A DNA stretch of 64,000 nt from Solirubrobacteraceae bacterium (GTDB lineage Bacteria; Actinomycetota; Thermoleophilia; Solirubrobacterales; Solirubrobacteraceae): the NCBI GenBank assembly GCA_029263125.1, contig JAJCYD010000034.1, positions 1 to 64,000 on the forward strand, written 5' to 3'. Of the stretch, positions 27,168 to 29,527 are shown piece after piece. The translations under genes were made by a program, and so were the position numbers. Each line of letters starts with the position of its first letter. The stretch's first letter is position 1. Under the pieces are notes generated by a model. That model saw nothing but the letters and a program-made list of their open reading frames with translations, was not told the DNA's origin and did no database searches.

Positions 27168-27905
27168 TCAGCCCACGCGATGCGCCACGCCCAACGCGGT
27201 TGCCTTCGAGGTCGCGCCCTCCAGTCGCAGCGTGAGCGGGCCGCGCTGCCACAGCAGCGTGTTGCCGGCCAGCTTCAGGCTGTCGGTCTGAACCCGCCCG
27301 CGCGCGTCGAGGAAGGCGACCTGGTGCGGGCGGCCGGAGAGCCACACGGCGGGCTCGCCGTTGACGCTCACCCGCTCCGCCGATGTGCCGCGGCCCAGCC
27401 CCTTGAAGATGAACTCCGTGGCCTGCGTCCCGCGGAACTCGGTGAGCAGCAGCCGCTCGCCGGCGCGCGTCCCATAGACCAAGGTCAGCGCGCCTCCGGG
27501 CGGGGACGACCGCACGTAGGTCGCTCCCGGCGGTCCCAGCTGCGCATCGGCGGTGACGACACCGAAGTCGACGAGGTCGGCGGCTCGCTGCGCCGAGACG
27601 CGGCGGCCGAGATCAAGCTCGGCGCCCGGAGGGACCCGAACCGGCGCGGGTATCCGCTGCGCCTTCACGCCCGCGATGCCCAGCGCGTCGAGAACGGCGT
27701 CGCGGACCGGCCCGACGGCCGCGAACGCGCCCGCCGGCAGCACGAGCGCCAGGACGATGACGAGCGCGATCCGGCGGGTGCGTTGGGGCGTCCGGCGCGG
27801 TGGCACGGCGCGAAGACGTGCGGCGACTGCGTTCGCCAGGTCGGGCGTCGGCGGGTGCTCGAGCTCGCTTGAGAGCTCGCCGAGCGCGCGTCGCAGGTCA
27901 GTCAT
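27168..27905 (-). CDS. Putative membrane-anchored anti-sigma factor
   Basis: 245 residues. A cytosolic N-terminus of about 45 residues (MTDLRRALGELSSELEHPP...) is followed by one membrane helix (about 46-65) and a 180-residue extracytoplasmic domain with a VPPGAELDLG region. This topology and its 8-base overlap with the ECF sigma gene indicate an anti-sigma factor that holds the sigma factor at the membrane. The HxxxCxxC zinc motif of ZAS anti-sigma factors is absent. The outer domain carries no family I recognise, so the inducing signal is unknown. Confidence 0.7.
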   Translation of the reverse strand: MTDLRRALGELSSELEHPPTPDLANAVAARLRAVPPRRTPQRTRRIALVIVLALVLPAGAFAAVGPVRDAVLDALGIAGVKAQRIPAPVRVPPGAELDLGRRVSAQRAADLVDFGVVTADAQLGPPGATYVRSSPPGGALTLVYGTRAGERLLLTEFRGTQATEFIFKGLGRGTSAERVSVNGEPAVWLSGRPHQVAFLDARGRVQTDSLKLAGNTLLWQRGPLTLRLEGATSKATALGVAHRVG

Positions 27906-28461
27906 CGCCGACCACCAGGCGAAGCTGCGCGAGCGCGCGCGAGACGCGCGACTTCACCGTGCCGAGGCGGCAGCCGAGCACGGCCGCGGTCTCCGCCTCG
28001 GAGAGCTCGAGCAGGTAGCGGCACGCGATCGCCAGGCGCTGCGGCTCGGCCAGCGCGTTCACCGCGCCCAGCACGGTGGCACGGCGTTCTGCGGCCAGGA
28101 CGGTGGCCTCGGGGGACGGGGCCGCGTCCCCCGAGACCGGTCGCTCGCCAGCCCGCCGTGCGAGCCCGGCGCGGCGGCTCGCCGAGCGGCGCTGGTTGTG
28201 GGACTCGTTGGCGACGATGCGCAGCAGCCACGGCCGAAACGGTGCGCCGGACCGAAAGCGCCACAGCGCGTTGTAGGCCTTGACGCACGCCTCCTGGGCG
28301 GCGTCCTGCGCGTCGGCGGCGTTGCCGGTGATGAGATGGGCTGTGCGGAAGGCGATCTGCTGATGCATGGCGACGAGCTCGGCGTAGGCGTCCACGTCCC
28401 CGCGCCTGGCGCGTTCGACGAGGTCCTGCTCTGCGAGTGGCCGGCCCACCACCGCCCGCAT
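27898..28461 (-). CDS. RNA polymerase ECF sigma factor
   Basis: 187 residues from the ATG at 28461; GTG at 28452 is a serious alternative because a promoter -10-like TGTAAT overlaps the ATG and would put a leaderless start at that GTG. Region 2 (YAELVAMHQQIAFRTAHLITGNAADAQD... FRPWLLRIVANES) and region 4 (LAEPQRLAIACRYLLELSE, then an HTH with GCRLGTVKSRVSRAL) are both clear. No extra C-terminal domain. It lies directly upstream of the anti-sigma gene and shares a symmetric promoter with the divergent secreted protein, implying autoregulation. Confidence 0.92.
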   Translation of the reverse strand: MRAVVGRPLAEQDLVERARRGDVDAYAELVAMHQQIAFRTAHLITGNAADAQDAAQEACVKAYNALWRFRSGAPFRPWLLRIVANESHNQRRSASRRAGLARRAGERPVSGDAAPSPEATVLAAERRATVLGAVNALAEPQRLAIACRYLLELSEAETAAVLGCRLGTVKSRVSRALAQLRLVVGDD

Positions 28462-28515
28462 TACACCGTGGACCGCCGATCCGTTCCATGGAACCCGCCG
28501 GACGCCTGCGGTGTA
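28462..28515. promoter_or_regulatory. Symmetric bidirectional ECF-type promoter
   Basis: The 12-bp palindrome GTTCCATGGAAC (28,483-28,494) supplies a GGAAC -35 element on each strand. On both sides exactly 17 bases follow and then TGTA (28,512-28,515 forward; 28,465-28,462 reverse), each preceded by CGG. GGAAC is the classic ECF -35 motif. The arrangement would let one sigma factor drive its own operon and the divergent gene at once. Confidence 0.7.
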
Positions 28516-28525
28516 GAGGTCGGTG

Positions 28526-29527
28526 ATGAGGCTGCGCTGGATCGCCCCGCTCGTCCTCGCCGCCGCCGCCGTCATGGCCGGCGTCCTGCTCGCCTCCTCT
28601 CGCGAGACCTCGGCGCCGGCGGCCGCTGCGACGCGGCTCGGCTGCGCGCGGCAGTCCAGCTTTGACTTCCGCGACGCCTTTGGCGATCGTCGCAACCGCG
28701 TCGTGGGGCCGCTCGTGCTTGTCGGCGGGGCGACGTTCACCGATGCCGCGACGGCCCGCGACTTCGGTGGCAACACGTTCCAGCTGCTGGTGCGAGCGGG
28801 TCACACGGTGACGGTGAGCGCGCGCGGAAGCGCGGCCATCGCGTACGGGCCGCTGACCGAGCGTCGCGCGATCACGTTCGTCGCGTGCTCCGCGAAGCGC
28901 TCTGCGAGCAGCGCGCCCGAGCCGGTCACGTTGTGGTCGGGCTTCGTGACGACGCCTGATCCAGCCTGCGTTCGACTCGACGTCCGCGTCGACGACGAGC
29001 CGGCGTCGCGGCCCGTGACGCTCGAGCTCGGTCGTCGCTGCGCCAAGCCGCCACCGTTGCGTGGCTGCGCCGAGCATGTCGAGGGCCCCAAGCCGTCCAC
29101 CACGACAGCAGTTCCTGGGGACGTCGCGGTCGGCCCGCTGCGCTTCCGCGGCCTCGCGGACATCGCCAGCCGGCGGAGCTTCGAGATCGATAACACCGGC
29201 GCCTACTACGGCGTCAAGTCCGGAGTCGGGGTGCCTGCCGGCATGCGCGCGACGCTCTCGATCGGCCGTAGCGCGCGGAGCTGGGCGTCGCTGACCTATG
29301 GGCCCCGCCGCCCGGGCCAGCCTGATCGCGTCGACAACGCGGTGCGCTTCCAGGCCTGCGCGGCAGGGCACCCGGCGTTCAGCTACGACGGCCCCGTCGG
29401 TCCGGTCACCGGCTTCTCCGGCGGCTTCAGGCTGAAGCGTGCCGGCTGCGTACCGCTGGAGGTGCGCGTCGCAGGCCGTCCAACCGTGCGCAAGACGATC
29501 GCCTTCGGCGTGCGGCGCTGCGACTAG
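28526..29527 (+). CDS. Exported protein with a duplicated domain
   Basis: 333 residues from the ATG at 28526 (a GTG one codon earlier is possible). An N-terminal hydrophobic segment (about 7-24) is a signal peptide or anchor. The rest is two copies of a roughly 145-residue unit. Each contains GPLxxxG...F near its start, a central YGP(L/R) then FxACxA, a CVxLxVRV-type strand and a terminal RRC. Conserved Cys pairs suggest disulfides, in keeping with export. No known family is recognised. Its promoter is the mirror image of the ECF sigma promoter, so it is a probable member of that regulon. Confidence 0.75.
   Translation: MRLRWIAPLVLAAAAVMAGVLLASSRETSAPAAAATRLGCARQSSFDFRDAFGDRRNRVVGPLVLVGGATFTDAATARDFGGNTFQLLVRAGHTVTVSARGSAAIAYGPLTERRAITFVACSAKRSASSAPEPVTLWSGFVTTPDPACVRLDVRVDDEPASRPVTLELGRRCAKPPPLRGCAEHVEGPKPSTTTAVPGDVAVGPLRFRGLADIASRRSFEIDNTGAYYGVKSGVGVPAGMRATLSIGRSARSWASLTYGPRRPGQPDRVDNAVRFQACAAGHPAFSYDGPVGPVTGFSGGFRLKRAGCVPLEVRVAGRPTVRKTIAFGVRRCD

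Follow-up and report, generated by a model that had tools for sequence, protein, structure and literature searches.

Features of the locus

The window (the whole 64-kb stretch of DNA analysed here) contains a putative sigma/anti-sigma operon on the minus strand and, divergent from it, a gene for an exported protein with a duplicated domain (Table 1). Between them is a 54-base stretch (28462–28515) in which two copies of GGAAC-N17-TGTA lie back to back on opposite strands, in mirror image. These two sites are the only matches to GGAAC-N17-TGTA in the window. A sequence-only reading had described GGAAC on both strands, each followed by 17 bases and TGTA, and the sequence agrees with that description to the base. 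The TGTA can be extended, with both -10 elements reading GGTGTA. The two -35 elements are separated by 2 bp (GTTCC-AT-GGAAC), and the perfect palindrome at their centre, GTTCCATGGAAC, is joined by outer arms (TACACCG/CGGTGTA) that contribute another 7 bp of perfect dyad. The spacers between the -35 and -10 elements are not symmetric (6/15 positions match), and the symmetry is therefore confined to where a sigma factor would touch the DNA.

Table 1. Coordinates of the genes, domains, and promoter elements at the locus.
Feature	Position	Strand	Basis or detail
Putative membrane anti-sigma factor	27168..27905	-	Conserved second operon gene; predicted structure
ECF sigma factor gene	27898..28452	-	Start GTG 28452 or 28449; Pfam Sigma70_r2 8e-14, Sigma70_r4_2 6e-12
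Candidate ECF promoter, sigma/anti-sigma operon	28462..28487	-	Sequence; identical spacing at 55/57 sigma relatives
-35 (GGAAC), sigma side	28487-28483	-	Followed by 17 bases, then TGTA 28465-28462
-10 (GGTGTA), sigma side	28467-28462	-	
Palindrome GTTCCATGGAAC, 12 bp	28483..28494		Two abutting -35 elements, 2-bp gap
Candidate ECF promoter, exported protein	28490..28515	+	Sequence; same element before homologues elsewhere
-35 (GGAAC), exported side	28490-28494	+	Followed by 17 bases, then TGTA 28512-28515
-10 (GGTGTA), exported side	28510-28515	+	
Exported protein, duplicated Cys-containing domain	28523..29527	+	ORF; start GTG 28523 or ATG 28526
Domain copy 1, exported protein	28628..29047	+	Residues about 36-175; domain-versus-domain match, alignment A2
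Domain copy 2, exported protein	29063..29524	+	Residues about 181-334; domain-versus-domain match, alignment A2

As in ECF (group IV) sigma factors, which are about 180–200 amino acids long, the sigma factor has regions 2 and 4 only: Pfam places Sigma70_r2 at residues 30–98 and Sigma70_r4_2 at residues 131–181, with no match to region 3. It scores above the cut-off of the generic sigma70-ECF model in NCBIfam and, among the matches listed, below that of every specific NCBIfam subgroup. The open frame extends up to an ATG at 28461. The exported protein has a signal-like N-terminus, and its two domain copies match each other with 36 per cent identity over 94 amino acids (E 2e-7), with conserved cysteines in the alignment. 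The Pfam and NCBIfam matches, the conserved operon, and this domain match bear out the earlier assignment of a sigma/anti-sigma operon to one side and a duplicated-domain exported protein to the other. No match to the exported protein was found in Pfam, NCBIfam, or PDB sequences, and a PDB profile search with its domain returned nothing significant. A structure prediction from the single sequence was useless (pLDDT 34).

The putative anti-sigma factor

The anti-sigma gene has an 8-bp overlap with the sigma gene, which many relatives retain. Its predicted structure (pLDDT 82) has two short cytoplasmic helices (2–14 and 23–32), one transmembrane (TM) helix (42–63), and an outer alpha/beta domain. 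The zinc motif Hx3Cx2C is absent from the cytoplasmic part of the thirty aligned members; this motif occurs in about half of class I anti-sigma factors (ASDI) and so is not strictly defining. Checked against the four-helix domain of class I, the model has two helices before the TM helix. Pfam anti-sigma models gave no match, and a PDB profile search with the anti-sigma sequence gave no significant one. In class II anti-sigma factors (CnrY-like), two short cytoplasmic helices wrap the sigma factor (PMC7406223), and the modelled layout fits this two-helix class better than class I. The six best VIA-align neighbours of the outer domain are all RseB/MucB, with Z-scores of 7.2–8.5 that are near background for such models; the best has Z 8.5 and an rmsd of 2.5 Å over 91 residues. 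Sequence identity to RseB/MucB is only 12–15 per cent. Foldseek returned no significant match for this domain. As modelled, the resemblance of the outer domain to the C-terminal domain of RseB/MucB is suggestive.

The promoter in relatives of the sigma factor

Relatives of the sigma factor were collected from species genomes, giving eighty loci in Thermoleophilia, other Actinobacteriota, Chloroflexota, and Dormibacterota, of which fifty-seven had a usable upstream region. At fifty-five of these, GGAAC-N17-TGTA occurs within 120 bp upstream of the sigma gene (shuffled mean 0.016), and spacings of 12–16 and 18–23 gave no matches at the fifty-seven loci. A GGAAC-type -35 at a rigid distance from the -10 is what is expected of an ECF-dependent promoter, and the earlier claim of an ECF-type promoter is thus upheld. 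Of the two exceptions, L046 carries GGCGTA in place of GGTGTA. Most relatives have a single GGAAC, always 17 bp from TGTA, and the consensus is GGAACC-N14-GGTGTA (GGAACC-N17-GTA in ECF terms), often with GAA next. A literature search found no paper describing a GGAACC-N14-GGTGTA promoter. At the level of sequence, the family and its exact promoter are conserved across several bacterial phyla, and this conservation is footprinting evidence for an autoregulation that would not be peculiar to the window. As far as sequence comparison can do so, it confirms that the GGAAC-N17-TGTA pair is no chance palindrome and that both sites serve the adjacent ECF sigma factor as promoters.

We searched the 3.75-Mb genome of the window for GGAAC-N17-TGTA, as the sequence-only reading had suggested. 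The raw count of four matches shows no excess over the roughly seven expected from base composition (a reversed control gave three), and we rejected a genome-wide excess as an argument; the case is therefore carried by position and conservation. The refined motif GGAAC-N15-GGYGTA also has exactly four matches in this genome, all of them at sigma or exported-family genes: the sigma operon, the divergent exported gene, and two exported relatives unlinked to the sigma locus, at C17:93974 and on C45, the latter a broken gene. Sixty-one relatives were compared. Ten sigma-bearing genomes hold twenty-one GGAAC-N15-GGTGTA sites, and the fifty-one without the sigma factor hold at least about fifteen, counted by eye among the matches listed. 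With the sigma factor's own promoters excluded, the rates are about 1.1 versus about 0.3 sites per genome (Poisson ~0.0002, approximate and among the matches listed).

The exported protein family and other partners

Relatives of the exported domain occur in about 9 per cent of genomes of the class (35/399). The strict element GGAAC-N17-[TC]GTA precedes nine of thirty-four homologue loci, solely at spacing 17, with the start codon 6–12 nt downstream (shuffled mean 0.03; none with reversed or complement motifs). Three incomplete assemblies (G366, G364, G292) have a homologue with a strict site and, at E 1e-25, no close sigma factor; exported homologues that lack the site occur in several sigma-bearing genomes. 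Sites of the GGCGTA type could belong to a sister ECF sigma factor. The element stands before the exported gene of the window and before its relatives on C17 and C45, and the family is therefore the core regulon predicted from sequence for this sigma factor. The earlier proposal that the exported protein is a core regulon member gains support here, given that all four matches in its own genome fall at the sigma operon or this family.

The copy on C45 (G000:C45:10350-10967; loci L143 and L003) retains its GGAAC-N17-TGTA promoter intact and carries an early stop and a change of frame, leaving a 29-aa, single-TM reading frame at its start. At two loci (L135, G000:C36; L137, G011:C82), longer exported-family proteins are encoded behind a sister element, GGGACC..CGCGTA, whose distance from the start codon is unchanged. 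This element is perhaps read by another ECF sigma factor; a rough upstream scan of the other ECF genes of the window's genome found no element matching GGGACC/CGCGTA.

In other lineages, a second promoter copy lies behind the anti-sigma gene or divergent from the operon and heads other exported proteins. These partners include fifteen propeller-like lipoproteins, six YtkA-like proteins, three actinomycete proteins, a single plastocyanin-like protein, and others. Because unrelated exported proteins are found under the same promoter, the sigma factor, anti-sigma factor, and promoter appear fixed and the partner exchangeable, which weakens the idea that the exported protein of the window is a sensor. 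The comparison suggests that this protein more probably serves as an output or modulator than as a fixed sensor.

At one Dormibacterota locus (L026:4561-5400), two tandem exported genes lie behind a single sigma operon, each with its own promoter copy. In six Actinobacteriota loci (L053, L061, L062, L008, L145, L210), the exported partners under the same promoter begin with A(K/G)GP..A.I.GPG and have a C-terminal TM helix; they may be one family.

Mirror geometry and alternative explanations

Divergent promoter pairs at sigma loci have a 2-bp gap in the window's genome (G000) and in G004, of the same genus, and a 1-bp gap in G568, from another family in the phylum. Wider gaps were found in G063 (13 bp), G380 (9 bp), L027 (9 bp), and L040 (11 bp). 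G006, a congener with the closest sigma factor and an orthologue of the exported protein, has a gap of 14 bp, with GGCGTA on the exported side. The mirror geometry is rare. A reversed control of the dyad pattern (gap 0–30) had no matches in 399 genomes of the class and 396 of the phylum. At one locus of G004 (L125, G004:C11, 924-977), a 28-aa TM-like frame (MRSLLLALIACAILVNLVVVFIASSLLF) is all that follows the mirrored promoter on its minus arm; near the element, the sigma gene of G004:C11 has no in-frame ATG, GTG, or TTG start.

A perfect 12-bp palindrome between divergent genes is in the usual place of an operator, and a perfect palindrome, GTTCCCGGGAAC, is present in G004 too. The palindrome could thus be the binding site of a dimeric repressor or activator, its likeness to an ECF -35 being incidental. 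Yet G006 keeps both promoters 14 bp apart, most sigma relatives have only a single GGAAC, at a constant 17 bp from TGTA, the central dinucleotide varies, and no other regulator gene adjoins. The gap is not conserved and both promoters are, so we rejected the operator as very improbable. Slightly less probable again is that only the sigma-side site works. A palindromic -35 would automatically place GGAAC on the opposite strand, but it would not supply the GGTGTA of the exported side, which is exact in sequence and in its 17-bp spacing independently of the palindrome. The exported gene moreover starts 7–10 nt past this -10, as its homologues do, and no palindrome accompanies the element at its unlinked relatives (C17, C45, G004:C61, G018:C1). 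We give almost no credence to the inverted repeat acting at the RNA level, as a hairpin or terminator between the two genes. The plus strand does fold across the dyad at -30 kcal/mol, but 34 of 200 dinucleotide shuffles fold as well (z only -1.0, on which we rejected it), the spacers are not complementary (6/15), and divergent genes need no terminator here.

It is highly probable, then, that the stretch consists of two divergent promoters that abut, and that the neighbouring ECF sigma gene encodes the factor that reads both. The sequence-only reading had one palindromic element driving both sides. A promoter on each side stands, and we amended the single shared element to two abutting promoters because the 12-bp palindrome is not conserved, as the gap in G006 demonstrates. 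Since the gap varies while both promoters persist, the palindrome is best read as two abutting -35 elements and not as a separate operator. Very probably, a single sigma factor switches on its own operon and the exported protein of the opposite strand.

Predicted transcript starts

The sigma-H scaffold of M. tuberculosis reads GGAACA-N17-GTT, its final T falling at about -8 in a numbering that we derived from the oligonucleotide in PMC6411747. GGAACC-N17-GTA aligns exactly with this scaffold, and the N17 spacing is the optimum of M. tuberculosis sigma-H (PMC6411747). On this alignment, transcription of the exported gene is predicted to start at about 28523, the GTG of its ORF, with the ATG 3 nt further. 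The predicted start on the sigma side is at about 28454, 2 nt before GTG 28452, and the two starts would be about 69 bp apart. Each predicted start coincides with a GTG or ATG or lies no more than about 5 nt from one, and both transcripts would be leaderless or have only a very short leader. The ATG at 28461-28459 precedes the predicted sigma transcript start, and therefore GTG 28452 or 28449 probably suits the sigma start better, giving an N-terminus of VVGRPL or VGRPL as in relatives.

Comparison with known systems

As in the autoregulated operons of the M. tuberculosis sigma-H type, there is a GGAAC -35 with a rigid 17-bp spacing, and the sigma and putative anti-sigma genes share their own promoter. 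In contrast, the -10 here is GGTGTA (GTA versus the GTT of sigma-H), and the putative anti-sigma factor is membrane-bound and without the zinc motif. The EcfG/PhyR/NepR general stress locus, as described in PMC8103513, likewise has divergent units at a sigma locus with the same ECF-type promoter, and abutting promoters are not described in the portion considered here. The locus in the window differs in that it has no PhyR-like partner and that an exported protein is the product of the divergent gene. The predicted fold of the outer domain of the anti-sigma factor is closest to the C-terminal domain of RseB/MucB, recalling RseA-RseB and MucA-MucB, but RseB/MucB is a separate sensor protein in Proteobacteria, whereas the RseB-like domain here is fused to the anti-sigma factor.

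Bidirectional promoters described by Warman et al. in E. coli and other prokaryotes share a -10, with starts around or within it, and their polymerases compete only when the promoters are active (PMC12825309). The element in the window resembles them in its DNA symmetry, in one short sequence that would give divergent transcripts, and in the steric exclusion to be expected. It differs in having separate -10 elements, in the location of its symmetry at the -35 elements, and in its use of an alternative sigma factor. It is not a bidirectional promoter in the sense of Warman et al., the -10 not being shared, and a -35-abutting pair read by an alternative sigma factor is a design different from the published ones.

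Proposed mechanism and significance

In a resting cell, the membrane anti-sigma factor would hold the sigma factor, and a signal at the envelope would release it. RNA polymerase bearing the sigma factor would then occupy the element facing one way or the other; depending on its orientation, it would transcribe the sigma/anti-sigma operon or the exported-protein gene. Polymerase footprints extend to about -55. With the -35 elements only 2 bp apart, each polymerase would cover the other promoter, and therefore two should not fit at once; mutual exclusion at the element is thus expected from its geometry. Output and autoinduction would rise together across the population and compete on each DNA molecule.

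Tentatively, and with rather more doubt than confidence, we propose a widespread and undescribed ECF module. It would consist of a sigma factor with a GGAACC-N14-GGTGTA promoter, a zinc-less, short-helix anti-sigma factor whose own outer domain is RseB-like, and an exported partner that shares this promoter and is exchangeable. In a few lineages, the sigma and partner promoters would have become joined at their -35 elements, yielding a switch that admits one polymerase at a time and sets how much autoinduction there is relative to output.

These results provide an exact promoter code and a minimal predicted regulon for an ECF sigma family of mostly uncultured Actinobacteriota, Chloroflexota, and Dormibacterota, and they indicate unknown exported proteins as the main product of the family. 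The abutting -35 pair is a clean natural setting in which to test for mutual exclusion between two ECF polymerases, which would link expression of the regulator itself to expression of its target.
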